64,000 nucleotides of DNA from Flavisolibacter nicotianae (GTDB lineage: Bacteria > Bacteroidota > Bacteroidia > Chitinophagales > Chitinophagaceae), in the NCBI RefSeq assembly GCF_003628535.1, contig NZ_RBCI01000001.1:868001-932000 (forward strand). Reading direction: 5' to 3'. Position numbers and translations under genes: made by a program. Below the pieces are notes generated by a model that ran no database searches, was not told the DNA's origin, and saw only the letters and a list, made by a program, of their open reading frames with translations. Shown here one piece after another: positions 1 to 42,776 of the stretch (position 1 is its first letter; each line of letters begins with the position of its first letter).

Positions 1-1358
1 GCAACAACCAGTTTGTGGCGCTGAATGATGGCTCTACCAATAATAACCTGCAGGTGGTGATGGAACTGGGAAAGTATGACGAGAGTTTTCTGAAACGCAT
101 CACCACGTCGGCTTCGCTGAAAGTGACCGGCACCCTGGTCGAATCATTGGGCAAAGGACAAAAAGTAGAAGTAAAGGCGACCGAGGTCGAGATCCTTGGC
201 GACAGCGACGCAGAGGCGTATCCCCTGCAACCCAAAAAACACAGCCTGGAATTTTTGCGGGAAAAAGCGCACCTGCGCTTTCGCACCAACACCTTCAGCT
301 CCGTGTTTCGCGTTCGCCACTCGCTGGCCTTTGCGGTGCATAAATTCTTTAACGAAAAAGGATTCTTTTACCTCCACACGCCGATCATCACGGCAAGTGA
401 TGCGGAAGGCGCCGGTGAAATGTTCCGCGTCTCGACATTGCCGTTTGACAATCCGCCCCGCAAAGAAGACGGTAGCATTGATTTTGCCGACGACTTTTTT
501 GGCCGTGCTACGAACTTAACCGTGAGCGGACAACTCGAAGGCGAATTGGGTGCCACCGGCCTTGGCGACATTTATACCTTTGGTCCCACGTTCCGTGCGG
601 AAAATTCCAATACGGCCCGTCACCTGGCGGAGTTCTGGATGATTGAACCGGAGATGGCCTTCTGCGATCTGGAAGACAACGCCAACCTGGCCGAGGAATT
701 CATCCAGTACATCATCCGCTACGTAATGGAAAACAATGCGGACGACCTGGAGTTCCTTCGCCAGCGTCTCCTGGAGGAGGAGAAAGCAAAACCGCAAACA
801 GAACGTAGCGAATTGGACCTGATTCAAAAACTGCAGTTTGTGGTTGACAACAAATTCGAACGCATTACCTATACCGAGGCGATCGATATCCTGCTGCAAT
901 CGAATCACTACAAAAAGAAAAAATTCCAGTACGATGTGAAATGGGGCATCGACATGCAGAGCGAACACGAACGCTACCTGGTGGAAAAGCATTTCAAAAA
1001 GCCGGTGATCGTGACCAATTATCCTGCTGCCATCAAGGCGTTTTACATGCGCCAGGATGAGGGCTGCGAACCGGGAAAAGAAACGGTGGCTGCCATGGAT
1101 ATTTTAGCTCCCGGCATTGGAGAAATCGTCGGCGGCTCGCAACGCGAAGAGCGTTACGACAAGCTCACCGAACGCATGAAGGCGATGCACGTACCGGCCG
1201 ATGAATTGTGGTGGTACCTCGATACACGCCGCTTTGGTACCGTGCCGCATGCCGGCTTTGGCCTCGGCTTCGAACGCATGGTGCAGTTTGTGACCGGTAT
1301 GGGCAACATCCGCGATGTGATCCCTTTTCCACGAACACCGAAGAATGCGGAGTTTTAA
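1..1358 (+). CDS. asnS: asparaginyl-tRNA synthetase, 3' part (open at left edge)
   Basis: Class II aminoacyl-tRNA synthetase that charges tRNA-Asn with asparagine in the cytoplasm. The frame is already open at base 3, so the N-terminus, including most of the OB-fold anticodon-binding domain, lies outside the window. The GTG at 15 is internal. Visible signatures are the class II motif 2 region [17 protein letters not shown], the loop [13 protein letters not shown], the [16 protein letters not shown] segment and the motif 3 C-terminus [20 protein letters not shown] followed by [14 protein letters not shown]. This order matches bacterial AsnRS closely and separates it from AspRS. A strong hairpin follows the stop, so the gene probably ends its transcript here. 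Confidence 0.97.
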
Positions 1359-38370: not shown

Positions 38371-38526
38371 ATGAAAAAATTTGTTATCCCAGTTGTTAGC
38401 GGCGCCTTGCAACAACACCACAAAAATGACATGGCCAGGAAGCCGCACTCGGTATTTAGTCGTTTGCTTTCGAATGAAAGCGTTTATAAGCGTTTGTACA
38501 CGGATAAGGAATTGAGTACCTGGTAG
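38371..38526 (+). pseudogene. small gene interrupted at its 3' end by the transposon
   Basis: From the ATG at 38371 (or 38431, MARKPHSVFSRLL) a frame runs to the transposon edge and ends TW-stop within the terminal repeat. If the element and one target copy are removed, the frame continues from 42777 as LLER and stops at TGA 42788-42790. That stop overlaps the ATG of the zinc-ribbon gene (42787) in the classic ATGA form. The original product would be 54 (or 34) residues, with a basic, helix-like end VYKRLYTDKELSTLLER. The overlap strongly suggests a real translationally coupled pair before insertion. The function is unknown. Confidence 0.6.
38514..38521. repeat. left 8-bp target site duplication
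   Basis: GAGTACCT immediately precedes the left terminal repeat. The identical octamer follows the right repeat at 42769-42776. Confidence 0.93.
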
Positions 38527-38537
38527 TGTCTCAGTTT
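38522..38537 (+). repeat. left terminal inverted repeat
   Basis: GGTAGTGTCTCAGTTT, identical to the inverted right end. After one mismatch, AAA also matches. Confidence 0.92.
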
Positions 38538-38826
38538 GAAATGTTAAAAACCCGGAGGGTTGGCAAAATGGTGAGGACATTTAAAAACCAACCCTCAGAT
38601 AGCGGAATACCTGAACCCTTACCGGGAGACCTGGATGCCTCAGAGTTAGTCTTTAGAATGTGAAGAACTCGTTGTAAATCAGCTATTGTGTACGGTAGCA
38701 CCATAGCAATACGGCCGAAAACGGATCTACAGCAGCGAATAATATAGCAATTATTTTTTCACAAAAAAAATGATATGTGGATAAGTCTTTACACTGGAAT
38801 TGCATTATTATTGCATTGAAATTACT
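38538..38826. other. left subterminal region of the transposon, no confident gene
   Basis: Contains a 9-bp inverted repeat GAGGGTTGG (38555-38563) and CCAACCCTC (38588-38596). One frame in this part (about 38575-38648) reads NPQIAEYLNPYRETWMPQS before a stop and could be the tail of an older gene. A TGTGGATAA DnaA-box-like site lies at about 38775-38783. No complete gene is seen. Confidence 0.5.
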
Positions 38827-39294
38827 ATGATCCCCGTAAACTCTCCAGCCAAATCCCGAAAAGATACTACTCAGAAATGGGAAACGCAAGAGAATGCTGT
38901 AACCCATAATGATGTAATTGATGCGTTTTTGACAGGTAAGGAAGTCGGACGCTCTGAACAGCTTTCTGTAAATCTTCGTCTATTTGGAGAGAATTATGAA
39001 AAGGCAAAAAGCCTTTCCGAAACTTTGCATAAGCAACTCGAAAGTATGGGCTTTAAGGTAGTGGGGCTTCATCTTCGTGCAGATTCTATTACTTCCTTCA
39101 ATACGCTCCTTATTGTTGATAAGATGGATTATCTCAATGAAAGTTTTTTGAAATCTTTTAGCATTGCCCGTGCATTTAAAAATGATGCCGATAGCGATAC
39201 CTTCAATATTGCATTTACTTTTACTCCTGACTCCGATACCTTGGATGAAAATTGTTTAGAACACGATGGGTTCTTCGCAAAATACAAGAAATAG
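38827..39294 (+). CDS. first gene of a two-gene module, unknown (possible antitoxin)
   Basis: 155 residues from the ATG at 38827. It is soluble and acidic, with no signal peptide. The N-terminal part contains THNDVIDAFLTGKEVGRSEQ and a helix FGENYEKAKSLSETLHKQLE. The middle is alpha/beta (MGFKVVGLHLRADSITSFNT, LLIVDKMDYLNESF) and the end reads FNIAFTFTPDS and HDGFFAKYKK. I do not recognise a named family. Its last 29 bp overlap the next gene, so the two are translationally coupled. Because the partner looks like a HEPN protein, an antitoxin or regulatory role is plausible, but this is inference. Confidence 0.7.
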   Translation: MIPVNSPAKSRKDTTQKWETQENAVTHNDVIDAFLTGKEVGRSEQLSVNLRLFGENYEKAKSLSETLHKQLESMGFKVVGLHLRADSITSFNTLLIVDKMDYLNESFLKSFSIARAFKNDADSDTFNIAFTFTPDSDTLDENCLEHDGFFAKYKK

Positions 39295-39709
39295 TATTGA
39301 GGTTTTTCAGCATGGCGAACACAATGAAGAGGTCTGTGACCTCTTAAACGTTGAGAAGAAGTACCGAGATTGGATTATTACTACGGCTTTTTATGCTTCG
39401 CTACATTTTGTTTCCTGCAAAATATTTCCATTCAAACATCCAATTAAGGCGTCTGATCCCATTGAGATAAAATCAATCGAAGAGTGGCAGAGGTTTAAAA
39501 ATTATGCATCAAACAAGCGCCACGATTTGTTAGCTGAACTTGTGTCAAGGTTTTGCACTGACATATCTGAAAAATATGATTGGCTATTGAGTACTGCAAA
39601 AACAAGTAGATACCATCAGTTTCAATATGGAGATGTGCAAATTTCTGACCTTGCAGTAAGCTATATGAAAGCAATAAAGAAAAGCTGTCAGCCAAAAGTG
39701 AAGAAATAA
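39266..39709 (+). CDS. HEPN-like domain protein, second gene of the module
   Basis: A 147-residue all-helical protein. The helix YRDWIITTAFYASLHFVSCKI is typical of HEPN proteins (W-x5-A-x-Y-A-x2-H pattern). A later basic stretch, NYASNKRHDLLAELVSRF, contains an R-H pair that could form the RNase-type motif, and YDWLLSTAKTSRYHQFQ matches the usual closing helix. HEPN proteins often act as RNase toxins in two-gene modules. The gene overlaps the preceding one by 29 bp and ends directly (0 bp) at the 3' end of the convergent transposase gene. The toxin role is inferred, and the catalytic spacing is not a perfect match to R-x4-6-H. Confidence 0.7.
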   Translation: MGSSQNTRNSIEVFQHGEHNEEVCDLLNVEKKYRDWIITTAFYASLHFVSCKIFPFKHPIKASDPIEIKSIEEWQRFKNYASNKRHDLLAELVSRFCTDISEKYDWLLSTAKTSRYHQFQYGDVQISDLAVSYMKAIKKSCQPKVKK

Positions 39710-40537
39710 TCAGTCTGCCAACTTCACAATATCCTCAATACTCATCAGCCGCTTAATTAATCCTGCCTGCATTGCTGGCGGCACTCTCAAAGACTTATGT
39801 ATTTTGACAAAATTGTAATACACAAAATGCAGGGCAATGGCGTGACAATGGTTATCGACCTTCTTTGAAAAAGCATTGGTCAGTCTGGTAAACCTTCTCA
39901 TGTGCATACGCATAGTGAGGTTTTGTCTTTCCACATACGAGGTACTGATGTGCTTTTCGTCAGGCTGGCCGGAAACAATGGTTTTCTTTGCACCAATGTA
40001 TTCAGTCGGACTATACTTTCTTTCCTGTTTACTGTTGCCGCTTTCGCCACCGTATAGTTTCACCAATTGGGCGAAATCTATATCCGCTCCAAAGTGACTG
40101 CCAATGGCATCCAAGTACGCTCTCAAGCCATCGGTCGTTAACTGCACCTTATTAGCTAATCTTGCCTTTACATCCTGCATAAATTCATGGGCTGCATACG
40201 CATCCCGCTGGCCTACGTGCCATGAAACAACCAGTTTTGTATCGGCGTCTATGCCTACCCATGTCCATACATCACCGGCATAATCTTCCATGCCTTCCGG
40301 TACATTCTTCTGCTTAGAGTAAACAAACGACCAGATTTCATCGCATTGCACCCGCTTTGCTGTAATGCCTTTTACCGTTTCATCATGGAATTTCTCACAA
40401 GCCCTGCCTACGTCCACTAACAGTTTAGTAACTGTGTTGATAGACACATCGGCAATGCGGGAGGTAGAGCGCAAGGAATTACCCTCAACAAGCAGATTAA
40501 TAATCTGAACTCTTTTCTGTAAAGGCAACTTATTCAT
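39710..40537 (-). CDS. IS1-family transposase
   Basis: 275 residues with the single-frame IS1-type layout found in Bacteroidota and Cyanobacteria. The N-terminal HTH region reads KRVQIINLLVEGNSLRSTSR and ADVSINTVTKLLVDVG. The catalytic domain contains RVQCDEIWSFVYSKQKN (first Asp), VWTWVGIDADTKLVVSW, QLTTDGLRAYLDAIGSHFG (second Asp) and HISTSYVERQNLTMRMHMRR (Glu). All DDE positions look intact, so the enzyme may be active. Its own promoter with a palindrome lies immediately upstream (40542-40576). Confidence 0.95.
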   Translation of the reverse strand: MNKLPLQKRVQIINLLVEGNSLRSTSRIADVSINTVTKLLVDVGRACEKFHDETVKGITAKRVQCDEIWSFVYSKQKNVPEGMEDYAGDVWTWVGIDADTKLVVSWHVGQRDAYAAHEFMQDVKARLANKVQLTTDGLRAYLDAIGSHFGADIDFAQLVKLYGGESGNSKQERKYSPTEYIGAKKTIVSGQPDEKHISTSYVERQNLTMRMHMRRFTRLTNAFSKKVDNHCHAIALHFVYYNFVKIHKSLRVPPAMQAGLIKRLMSIEDIVKLAD

Positions 40538-40541
40538 AAAA

Positions 40542-40571
40542 CAAAGGTATGCTTTATGCTTAAACGCTCAA
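40542..40571 (-). promoter_or_regulatory. transposase promoter
   Basis: On the minus strand TTG (40571-40569), a 19-bp spacer and TACCTTTG (40549-40542), ending 4 nt before the transposase ATG. This is a full consensus and a likely leaderless transcript. Confidence 0.75.
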
Positions 40572-40576
40572 GCATA
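40555..40576. promoter_or_regulatory. palindrome over the transposase promoter
   Basis: TATGCTT (40555-40561) and AAGCATA (40570-40576) flank 8 bp and span the -33 region. A related dyad (GATGCTTA/TAAGCATC) lies near the right end of the element at 42713-42734, so a shared binding protein, perhaps the transposase, is possible. Confidence 0.5.
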
Positions 40577-40625
40577 AATTTTATTTCATTGCTCTCAAAC
40601 TTTCTCTATTTTTGAAATGAAAATG

Positions 40626-40699
40626 TAGTGCCGGTGGGGGACGATCCCACAACTTCCGACTTAGCAGGTCGGTACTCTGTCCGGTTGAGTTACGGCACT
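40626..40699 (-). tRNA. tRNA with GCU (Ser) anticodon but class I structure
   Basis: On the minus strand a complete cloverleaf can be drawn: 7-bp acceptor AGTGCCG/CGGCACT, U8-A9, 4-bp D stem ACTC/GAGT with GG in the loop, 5-bp anticodon stem CCGAC/GTCGG with loop CTGCTAA (anticodon GCT), a 5-nt variable region AAGTT, 5-bp T stem GTGGG/CCCAC and discriminator A. Bacterial tRNA-Ser has a long variable arm, and this one does not. The T loop reads ATCGTCC, so the usual T54-A58 pair is replaced by A-T. No CCA is encoded. It lies inside the transposon, between the transposase and the 330-residue gene. Confidence 0.8.
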
Positions 40700-40715
40700 T
40701 TCCTTTAGCAATAAT

Positions 40716-40752
40716 CAAGCTCCTGAGGCGGTCAAACTTCGAGGGGCTTTTT
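40716..40752 (+). terminator. terminator-like hairpin on the plus strand
   Basis: AAGCTCC pairs with GGGGCTT across a loop of about 18 nt and is followed by TTTTTA. No plus-strand gene ends here, so it may be a relic or block read-through. The remaining ~110 bp to 40860 hold nothing recognisable. Confidence 0.45.
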
Positions 40753-40860
40753 TATTTGCCTAAGCTGAAACAAACCTATGACATGGTGGCACGAAAATGG
40801 GGTGAAACGGGGTGAAGAAGGGGTGAATTTACCCATTCAAAAAGGCTGATAACTAAGAAG

Positions 40861-41853
40861 TTATTTTATATTATTTGGATTATCTTTCTTTGCCCTGTTG
40901 TGCAGTTCAATGAATTTTCCTGTCCAGAATTTAGCATCCTCAACATCAAAATTGCTCCACAGACGACCTAATTTACCTACGCTCAATTGTTCGTTTTCCT
41001 TCTTGCTTTTTACCTGAAAACTGTCGGCAATGAACTGATGAAGTTCTTTGTAAGTAGTAGTTTCTATAATTTTTAATTCGTATAGCATTTTAAACAGAAA
41101 TAAAAGTCGAGAGGCTGTTAGATTGACCTTAATCTTGGTTTGTTTATAAAGTGTTTCCGGCAAAGGTTGCAGAGTGGCTGGTTTTATTGCTTGTAAATGC
41201 CCTATCGCTATTGTTCCAGGCTTTATTTTTCCGGCCTCGTATCTTTCTATGTGCTTTTGGATTGCACTTTTAAAATTCTCAATGATCCCTTTAAGGAAGT
41301 CAATGTATTGCGGCAGATAGCTTTTGTCAATTAACTCAGGGGTTTCAGTATTGCAGTAAAACCATGAATTTGTAATAGTTCTCTTTTTAGGATAGCGGCC
41401 AACTGTATAGCCGCCAGCCATAAAAGCTGCCGGTATTAATGTATTTTCTACCTCATACTTTTCGCCATGAGGCCTGTTGAAATCAACTGTCAATCTGAAT
41501 TTCAGCTCATCCTCTTTTATTTTCTGCTCGTATTTGACATAAGCCTTATCATTATAGTCGTCAACCAACTTTGAAAGGTATTGTATGTTAATGCCTGTAA
41601 TTCTCCAATCATTAAGCCATAGTTTCAAATCCTCAAACATTACCATCTGGGCATTTTCATTGGCGGTTAAAATTGTCTGGATGATTTCATCTTCCATTAA
41701 CCTATGTGTCCGCAGAGTATTTTCGTAGTAGGTGTCCAAATAACCATAATGATGCGCACCTGAGAATCTCGATATGTGATCTGCTATCCGGCCAATTTCA
41801 TAATATTCTAAGGTGAACTTGATTGCAAGGTTTATTCTTGGAAAAACAAGCAT
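40861..41853 (-). CDS. transposon passenger protein of unknown function, 330 aa
   Basis: A soluble 330-residue protein, mostly helical and charged. The N-terminal half includes HHYGYLDTYYENTLRTHRLM and EDLKLWLNDWRITGINIQYL; the middle has TLIPAAFMAGGYTVGRYPKK. The C-terminal ~90 residues (VNLTASRLLFLFKMLYELKI, KELHQFIADSFQVKSKKENEQ, AKFWTGKFIELHNRA) faintly resemble the C-terminal part of Bacteroidota mobile-element regulators such as RteC. That resemblance is weak and no function is assigned. It is upstream of the tRNA and transposase on the same strand. Confidence 0.75.
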   Translation of the reverse strand: MLVFPRINLAIKFTLEYYEIGRIADHISRFSGAHHYGYLDTYYENTLRTHRLMEDEIIQTILTANENAQMVMFEDLKLWLNDWRITGINIQYLSKLVDDYNDKAYVKYEQKIKEDELKFRLTVDFNRPHGEKYEVENTLIPAAFMAGGYTVGRYPKKRTITNSWFYCNTETPELIDKSYLPQYIDFLKGIIENFKSAIQKHIERYEAGKIKPGTIAIGHLQAIKPATLQPLPETLYKQTKIKVNLTASRLLFLFKMLYELKIIETTTYKELHQFIADSFQVKSKKENEQLSVGKLGRLWSNFDVEDAKFWTGKFIELHNRAKKDNPNNIK

Positions 41854-41969
41854 TAGAAGCAGTTGGAATGGTGGCTTAATTGCTTCTAAAATAAGAATAT
41901 TGCAGCAAGCTATTCCATGAAGTACAATTAATTGCTACATTTAAAATAACCAAACAAGTAGAGCTGTTT

Positions 41970-42452
41970 ATGAGAAAAATCCTTTTCCCCCTCCTGCTTT
42001 TAATTACCACAAATGCGTTTTCGCAAATAGACCACATCAAGGTACTAATAGGAAGACCTGAAAGTGCTATCAGAGAGTATTTTGATTCCCTCAATCATTT
42101 GAAGAGCAACCCTGCTTACCGGATTGATCGGGACGTTGCGGAAAATGGGGATTTGATGCTGTCTGTTAGTTTTTCGCTTAAAGACGAAGATTTCTATACC
42201 TGTATAGGTATTGCTGTCGTGTTTATTAGGATTTCAGGTGGCGAAGAAATTTGCAGAACGCAGGTGGTGCATGGTAGTTCCAAAAATGCACAGCCCAATC
42301 TAGCCTACATAAAAGACAACTATAAGTATATAAAAGAGAATTATTGGGAGCGGGCAATTGCCCCCGGCGCTAAAATAGGCGCAGAGTTCAAGTCCGAGAT
42401 GGTAAATAACCATTCCTCCTATACAATTGCTTATTGGGCAATAATGGAATAA
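41970..42452 (+). CDS. secreted transposon passenger protein, unknown
   Basis: 160 residues with a good signal peptide (RKILFPLLLLITTNAFSQ), so exported. The mature part is alpha/beta-like (IGRPESAIREYFDSLNHLKS, GDLMLSVSFSLKDEDFYTCI, YIKDNYKYIKENYWERAIAP, SYTIAYWAIME). Two Cys are present. No family is recognised. It is convergent with the adjacent KGG-motif gene with no gap: the stop ends at 42452 and the other gene's 3' end is at 42453. Confidence 0.75.
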   Translation: MRKILFPLLLLITTNAFSQIDHIKVLIGRPESAIREYFDSLNHLKSNPAYRIDRDVAENGDLMLSVSFSLKDEDFYTCIGIAVVFIRISGGEEICRTQVVHGSSKNAQPNLAYIKDNYKYIKENYWERAIAPGAKIGAEFKSEMVNNHSSYTIAYWAIME

Positions 42453-42692
42453 TTATTCTTTGTTCTGTCCCCACCGCTTTTGGGCTGCCTTGATCGCAAT
42501 TTCTTTTCGGCGCTCCGGTGTCAGGGCTTCTTTCCTGGCTTTTCCGCCTTTCAAGCCTCCTTTTCGGCCAAGTATAGCGGCTGCGCTCTTGATTTCATTC
42601 TCGTTGATTGGGTCGGTAGTTTCGCCCGTCGCTATATCGACTACCTGTTTCGCTCTTTGGTTTGTGTCACTTGGACGTTTTGCTTTTGCCAT
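42453..42692 (-). CDS. small basic KGG-motif protein
   Basis: A 79-residue, strongly basic protein. The C-terminal half carries the repeated pattern AAAILGRKGGLKGGKARKEA followed by LTPERRKEIAIKAAQKRWG, which is typical of small 'KGG'-type, presumably nucleic-acid-binding proteins often linked to mobile DNA. The N-terminal half is Lys/Thr-rich and probably flexible. Role unknown. It is the right-most gene of the transposon. Confidence 0.75.
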   Translation of the reverse strand: MAKAKRPSDTNQRAKQVVDIATGETTDPINENEIKSAAAILGRKGGLKGGKARKEALTPERRKEIAIKAAQKRWGQNKE

Positions 42693-42703
42693 GACACAAA
42701 TCT

Positions 42704-42735
42704 AATAAAAAAGATGCTTATTCGGTTAAGCATCT
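42704..42735 (-). terminator. inward-facing terminator at the transposon's right end
   Basis: Stem AGATGCTTA/TAAGCATCT (42712-42720 and 42727-42735); on the minus strand it is followed by TTTTTTA. It would stop transcription entering the element from the right. Confidence 0.75.
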
Positions 42736-42752
42736 GAAAACCACTAACTTTG

Positions 42753-42768
42753 AAACTGAGACACTACC
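42753..42768 (-). repeat. right terminal inverted repeat
   Basis: AAACTGAGACACTACC, the exact reverse complement of the left end. Confidence 0.92.
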
Positions 42769-42776
42769 GAGTACCT
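42769..42776. repeat. right 8-bp target site duplication
   Basis: GAGTACCT, identical to 38514-38521. Confidence 0.93.

Follow-up and report, generated by a model that had tools for sequence, protein, structure and literature searches.

A tRNA gene within an intact IS1/IS1595-type transposon

The window analyzed here, a stretch of 64,000 nucleotides from Flavisolibacter nicotianae, contains an intact IS1/IS1595-type transposon of 4247 bp with passenger genes (positions 38522 to 42768), which is present as a single copy in the host genome. Its 20-nt terminal inverted repeats, GGTAGTGTCTCAGTTTGAAA (left, 38522-38541; right, 42749-42768), differ by one mismatch and are flanked by a perfect 8-bp target-site duplication, GAGTACCT (38514-38521 and 42769-42776). 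Between these ends, the minus strand encodes a DDE transposase of 275 amino acids (39710-40537), matching PF03400 (E 3e-7) and NF033558 (E 3e-19). A family transposase enclosed by terminal inverted repeats and an 8-bp target duplication identifies the element as IS1/IS1595 type, the subgroup not being fixed by the transposase scores, which lie below the NCBIfam equivalog cut-offs (NF033558). Within the element, a tRNA gene occupies positions 40626 to 40699 on the minus strand, and the ATG of the transposase gene follows 88 nt downstream on the same strand. A preliminary description of this DNA had placed the tRNA inside a transposon; the 20-nt repeats and the perfect duplication bear this out more strongly than that description could show.

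Directly upstream of the tRNA gene, a passenger gene on the minus strand (40861-41853) encodes a protein of 330 amino acids that belongs to no family in Pfam, NCBIfam, or PHROGs and whose predicted structure was unusable (pLDDT 35). It occupies the place that a winged-helix gene holds in several related transposons. On the plus strand, a weakly HEPN-like passenger of 147 amino acids (39266-39709) matches RiboL-PSP-HEPN (PF18735) with an E value of 0.0057, below the cut-off, and the other transposon loci fetched yielded no homologue of it. Two further plus-strand passengers were recognized as open reading frames only, one of 164 amino acids overlapping the start of the HEPN-like gene (38800-39294) and one of 160 amino acids with a signal peptide that appears likely by eye (41970-42452). 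The minus strand also encodes a small basic 'KGG..ARA..LTxExRxEIAxKAAxKRW' protein of 79 amino acids (42453-42692), detected by tblastn with its homologues from loci L096 and L101, which is common to many transposons of this IS1-type family, whether or not a tRNA is present. A scan of the passenger genes gave no match to a synthetase. Cargo of the same family elsewhere includes a RES-Xre toxin-antitoxin system (L147, 4383-5221) and a gene for an Abi_2/HEPN-like protein (L141, 4968-5591).

A genuine tRNA with a serine anticodon and arginine identity elements

ARAGORN detected a single tRNA gene in the window (minus strand, 40625-40699, anticodon GCU). It matches RF00005 over its full length with 59.1 bits (E 3e-10; gathering score, 29), compared with 46 to 74 bits for the full-length tRNAs of the host genome. 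Folding at minimum energy (-26.9 kcal/mol) reproduces the cloverleaf exactly, and all 21 stem pairs are standard (acceptor, 7/7; D, 4/4; anticodon, 5/5; T, 5/5). The anticodon (40663-40665) reads the serine codons AGC and AGU. The structural parse further revealed a variable region of 5 nt (AAGTT), an A at position 73, and the T loop ATCGTCC with A54/U58 in place of T54/A58, a swap also present in L153, a Burkholderiaceae transposase locus in which the tRNA is oppositely oriented. CCA is not encoded by the gene. The window tRNA is a genuine tRNA; its cloverleaf, anticodon, short variable region, discriminator A, and 54/58 swap are all as initially described, and the low covariance score that had been named as refuting was not observed. 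In neither the window nor 28 related loci did any Rfam family other than RF00005 reach the gathering score, and assignment to bacterial Y RNA (YrlA) or to another Rfam family was rejected.

SerRS requires a long variable arm and G73. Judged by its sequence, the window tRNA cannot be a normal tRNA-Ser because its variable loop comprises 5 nt and its discriminator is A73 instead of G73. The host possesses a separate, ordinary long-arm tRNA-Ser(GCU) (G000:C1:61707-61797), with which the preliminary description had proposed a comparison; the window tRNA is the sole short-arm GCU tRNA among the tRNAs of the host genome, to which its similarity is at most 0.56. No counterpart was matched in 97 relatives and no pattern match was obtained in 394 other genomes of the phylum, which led us to reject a host-wide or genus-wide tRNA.

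The bacterial arginine determinants comprise A20, the main element, together with C35, U/G36, and A/G73 (PMC9976931). According to the structural parse, the window tRNA carries the full set, namely A20 (position 40680, minus strand), C35, U36, and A73, and among the tRNAs of the host genome A20 is restricted to tRNA-Arg. Arginine elements and a serine anticodon, the hallmarks of dual identity, are thus combined in one molecule. Our best prediction from these elements is that ArgRS charges the window tRNA and that arginine would be inserted at the serine codons AGU and AGC. The preliminary description had considered charging with another amino acid, absence of charging, and a role as decoy or cleavage target; the first is the best supported of the three, given the arginine identity set and the host-wide restriction of A20 to tRNA-Arg. 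AGY codons occur about 2.3 times per 100 codons in the long open reading frames of the window, so that misreading would affect most proteins.

Recurrence at the same site in related transposons

Related elements were collected by two routes. The tRNA-first route, using a class I pattern with A20 and anticodon GCU, yielded 12 viral and 50 genome loci, while an ACU version, serving as a control pattern, matched 14 times in viral contigs. Searching the pattern loci with the window transposase uncovered homologous transposases just downstream of the tRNA in nine of them (L098, L081, L104, L085, L096, L052, L101, L117, and L056). The transposase-first route relied on transposase-only searches, blind to the tRNA, and provided 93 loci with a readable start. 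In five of these 93 unselected loci, a tRNA was located 111 to 181 nt upstream of the transposase (L141, ACU; L190, CGU; L164, ACC; L199, GCU; L224, GCU), against about 0.12 expected by chance if one tRNA per 80 kb is assumed (P ~1e-7). The anticodon was foreign to the body in all five, and four of the five bodies had A20; since most relatives were found by a pattern requiring A20 and GCU, it is these five loci alone that test the claim about the anticodon. The fifth body, in L164 (1266-1342), is Glu-like with the anticodon ACC (Gly GGU) and lies upstream of a distant IS1-type transposase, and adds another type of mismatch between body and anticodon to this niche.

In nearly all cases the tRNA lies 88 to 181 nt upstream of the transposase ATG on the same strand. 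Exact transposon ends and 8-bp duplications with the tRNA inside were identified for L098, L104, L096, L101, and L141, the duplication of L141 having one mismatch, and the tRNAs of L098 and L081 differ by one base. The search of other mobile elements proposed in the preliminary description has thus located the same kind of tRNA in related transposons, and the absence of conservation, there named as refuting, does not apply. Mapped onto the transposase tree, presence of the tRNA required 12 label changes, compared with 13.0 for shuffled labels (10 on a larger quick tree). A single origin of the tRNA within the transposon family was rejected on this basis, and repeated gain of the tRNA cargo, or its exchange between transposons, therefore appears likelier.

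Across 14 transposon tRNAs, of which nine had been selected for A20 by the search pattern and five had not (the window tRNA and those of L141, L190, L199, and L224), A20 was present in 14/14, C35/U36 in 13/14, and A/G73 in 12/14; L141 and L190 have U73, and L190 lacks C35. Compensatory changes were found in the acceptor, anticodon, and T stems, and the tertiary pair 15-48 was A-U or G-C in all 14 tRNAs. The pairing cells of the alignment contained 12 G.U and no A.C combinations, which indicates that the tRNA strand is the folded strand.

We also considered missense suppression of the transposase itself. Conserved arginine positions of the transposase are not systematically AGY serines in the tRNA-bearing copies, on which ground this idea was rejected, and the transposase genes of tRNA-bearing elements show no avoidance of AGY (0.36 of serine codons versus 0.37). 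The transposase therefore does not seem to be specifically served or threatened by the tRNA.

A winged-helix gene as a frequent neighbor

A winged-helix gene was found beside the tRNA in 9 of 15 tRNA-bearing elements (L098, L081, L101, L117, L104, L096, L052, L199, and L224). The 88 tRNA-less loci contained none, although some of them comprise 1.5 kb of flank only, so that absence there is unproven locus by locus. The window element, L085, L056, L141, and L190 showed no such gene either. The p value of the link between tRNA and winged-helix gene is inflated by the relatedness of the loci, and an independent-pairs test on the tree had too few pairs for significance. The C-terminal winged-helix domain was modelled with a pLDDT of about 90 for residues 120 to 180; its nearest folds in Foldseek were generic winged helices, including Z-alpha domains, none of them below E 0.001. 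The winged-helix genes of L096, L052, and L224 are only distantly similar to the others.

Signs of antisense transcription across the tRNA

The strand opposite to the tRNA carries a promoter-like sequence, TTTC-N19-TATTTTTG (40584-40614, plus strand), from which transcription may be inferred. The host's own tRNA genes often use TATTTTTG as a -7 element; here it is found exactly at 40607-40614, with TTTC 19 nt upstream, and an antisense transcript would be expected to start within a few nucleotides of the 3' end of the window tRNA. Just past the tRNA 5' end, the same strand is predicted to fold into an intrinsic terminator (40717-40755, plus strand): the segment 40712-40756 folds with -15 kcal/mol (z -3.15) and has a U-run, and a simple consensus terminator scan reported none at 40717-40755. 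Together, promoter and terminator would delimit a transcript of some 130 nt that spans the entire window tRNA. No complement of at least 10 nt was found elsewhere in the window transposon within 4 kb, and an antisense RNA of this element would therefore have to overlap the tRNA itself.

Among the proteobacterial and viral relatives, which have TTGACA-type promoters, an antisense TTGAC is located 33 to 39 nt before the tRNA 3' end in L104, L096, L052, L101, L117, and L224. A sigma70-like antisense promoter at the tRNA 3' end was detected for 5 of 13 transposon tRNAs compared with 5 of 126 other tRNAs (p 6e-4). Overall, an antisense promoter is visible in only about half of 14 elements, the window element and six others, and in L104 and L056 the antisense strand likewise seems to form a hairpin terminator beyond the tRNA 5' end. 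A sigma70 scan disclosed no strong sense promoter for any transposon tRNA, the best candidate for the window tRNA being TTTG-N19-TATTGCTA; sense transcription of the window tRNA may therefore rely on read-through from the upstream gene.

Outside transposons, a complement of at least 11 nt to the anticodon arm was present within 120 nt in 7 of 62 class I tRNAs with anticodon GCU or ACU, compared with 0 of 77 others (p 0.003). At L097 (tRNA at 678-750, minus strand), L048, L055, L079, L105, and L114, an RNA complementary to the anticodon arm adjoins the tRNA, with a promoter-like sequence and the complementary RNA following within about 40 to 60 nt, an arrangement resembling a tRNA/antisense-RNA pair outside transposons. 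L097 is the clearest case, with a TTGACA-TATAAT-like promoter, a 14-nt complement, a hairpin, a 12-nt complement, and a terminator. Scans of viral sequences for a tRNA with a downstream complement returned mostly chance matches in coding DNA.

Relation to known systems

To our knowledge, encoded bacterial mistranslation is mainly represented by one actinobacterial tRNA family, the purpose of which is unknown. This family, tRNA-ProX of Streptomyces, is the closest known kind to the window tRNA. It comprises tRNA-ProA, -ProN, and -ProT, which occur in Streptomyces and Kitasatospora together with ProRSx and are natural dual-identity, mistranslating tRNAs (PMC11415595, PMC10365949); tRNA-ProX proved toxic to E. 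coli, and carbenicillin resistance is conferred by some of its members (PMC10365949). Both have the body identity of one amino acid and the anticodon of another in bacteria, a feature known here from sequence. However, tRNA-ProX is defined by a tRNA-Pro body, A33, A34, and a linked ProRSx, whereas the window tRNA is Arg-type with U33 and G34 and without a synthetase match. The tRNAs described here further differ in joining an arginine body to a serine (GCU/ACU) anticodon, in being cargo of IS1-type transposons with no dedicated synthetase seen, in having an antisense promoter and a winged-helix partner, and in keeping U33 in most transposon copies.

In type I and type VIII toxin-antitoxin systems, an RNA antitoxin acts against an mRNA or sRNA toxin. 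The arrangement proposed below would share with them the silencing of a toxin through a complementary RNA, but the proposed toxin would be a tRNA acting in decoding, and its toxicity as well as the antitoxin action are putative. As in IS1/IS1595 transposons with passengers, an IS1-type DDE transposase, inverted repeats starting with GG, an 8-bp duplication, and genes between the ends are present; unlike in those known, a tRNA gene is a recurrent cargo, of which we found no report in the open-access papers searched. Phage- and plasmid-borne tRNA genes usually match host isotypes. The window tRNA is likewise located on mobile DNA but has a body-anticodon mismatch.

A putative missense toxin and its alternatives

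It is tempting to speculate that this missense tRNA, with an arginine body and the serine anticodon GCU, is a cargo of the IS1-type transposon that acts as an antisense-silenced RNA toxin, a reading that we hold tentatively and rate at a little under even. It builds on the tRNA, the transposon, the recurrence of this type of tRNA at a matching position in relatives, the arginine identity elements, and the constrained L-shaped fold, all of which were observed. Host ArgRS, reading A20, C35, U/G36, and A/G73 and ignoring position 34, would charge the tRNA with arginine, and G34 would direct it to AGU and AGC, placing arginine at serine codons. By this reasoning, a change of base 34 alone to A or G in an NCU tRNA-Arg would produce an arginine tRNA that reads serine codons with its ArgRS contacts intact, which would explain why the anticodons GCU and ACU recur. 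The tRNA would be the stable RNA toxin, and the antisense RNA, running across it from the promoter at its 3' end, would silence it, possibly with help from the neighboring winged-helix protein in many relatives. Upon loss of the transposon, the unstable antisense RNA would decay first and the tRNA would then mistranslate AGY codons, resulting in toxin-antitoxin-like maintenance or an inducible growth block. The toxin and silencing part of this scheme ranks below the charging and decoding part. Several observations speak against the scheme, namely the unusual T loop of the window tRNA, the lack of a strong sense promoter in the sigma70 scan, the undiminished AGY usage of the transposase genes, the viral matches to the ACU control pattern (14) being as many as those to GCU (12), the departures from the identity set in L141 and L190, and the elements in which the winged-helix gene or the antisense promoter was not seen. 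More broadly, these elements might represent a new kind of toxin-antitoxin system, in which an antisense RNA, either overlapping or adjacent, silences an ArgRS-charged, AGY-reading tRNA, often with a winged-helix protein, and which occurs in phages and, carried by IS1-type transposons, in several phyla; this generalization is a more doubtful proposition, for which we see roughly one chance in three.

The same identity logic is compatible with a cargo that benefits its host, whereby conditional expression would bring a stress or phage-defense gain through Ser-to-Arg replacement and the antisense RNA would be a mere dimmer. The carbenicillin resistance conferred by tRNA-ProX members besides their toxicity in E. 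coli (PMC10365949), and the varied accessory genes of this transposon family, such as RES-Xre and Abi-like HEPN, are in line with such a benefit, but neither a synthetase nor a stress-regulon signal was seen in association with it, and the cargo spectrum also fits toxin-antitoxin or defense cargo; we regard it as unlikely. Since tRNA-ProX is toxic and some of its members also confer resistance, both addiction and benefit would agree with this precedent. The nearly invariant site upstream of the transposase ATG could instead point to a control element, in which antisense transcription and a folded RNA cleavable by RNase P/Z insulate the transposase gene or limit its expression. Such a role is quite improbable, considering that the tRNA is present in only 5/93 unselected family members, that a separate promoter region for the transposase, with the conserved palindrome TATGCTTGAC/AAGCATA, lies downstream of the tRNA, and that the conserved A20 and GCU/ACU anticodon would be needless.

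The weakly HEPN-like passenger of the window and the Abi_2/HEPN-like protein of L141 raise the question of a decoy or target that absorbs an anticodon nuclease, either such a passenger or a phage or host tRNase. The initial suggestion that the HEPN-like protein might cleave the tRNA or be decoyed by it has little support, given the PF18735 match below the cut-off and the lack of a homologue in the other loci fetched. Inspection by eye of the open reading frames of L098, L104, L096, and L101 provided no HEPN candidate, and a decoy would retain its target's loop, whereas no host tRNA joins such a body to this anticodon; we consider this role very improbable. A hitch-hiking pseudogene, that is, a captured tRNA-Arg with a drifted anticodon, would account for the foreign anticodon, the low similarity to host tRNAs, and the ACU control pattern being as common as GCU in viruses. 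It is harder to reconcile with the intact stems of the window tRNA, with the compensatory changes and 15-48 covariation across 14 elements, with its recurrence at one site in elements whose transposase tree requires 10 to 12 label changes, and with the near identity of the L098 and L081 tRNAs, and appears still less probable. That SerRS charges it as an ordinary serine tRNA in spite of the short arm is hardly credible: the anticodon GCU would fit, but the 5-nt variable region and A73 do not, and a normal tRNA-Ser(GCU) is already present in the host.

Compared with the known family, the tRNAs described here show a different identity swap, an arginine body with a serine anticodon, which is carried by mobile DNA across several phyla and accompanied by hints of antisense control. 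If the missense toxin proposed here is real, tRNAs themselves can serve as selfish weapons. Annotation pipelines that assign names by anticodon would then conceal them under the label tRNA-Ser, and a small genetic module would allow a direct test of what natural missense tRNAs are for.

Other tRNA-like genes

Several further tRNA-like genes were noticed during the searches. Those of L049, L050, L061, L068, L078, L083, L084, L089, and L091 have GCU, A20, and good D, anticodon, and T arms, with the acceptor stem little paired or unpaired; several have promoter-like and terminator-like flanks, and a 3' motif like CCTTGAAAATTA is common to L049, L078, L083, and L084. As drawn, these acceptor-less genes are not chargeable, and their products are possible mimics of the tRNA elbow. 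In the ACU tRNAs of L110, L111, L116, L117, L119, L120, and L141, mismatches recur in the anticodon stem that surrounds a conserved CTACTAAG core, where sequence seems to be more conserved than pairing. An ACU tRNA-like gene shares sequence of its T stem and 3' end with a long hairpin in both L109 and L121, and hairpin and tRNA fold would exclude each other in a switch-like manner. Finally, a partial copy of the adjacent tRNA-Phe without the 5' part of the acceptor stem (G000:C1:1018675-1018734) resembles the duplicated attachment site that an integrated element leaves behind.
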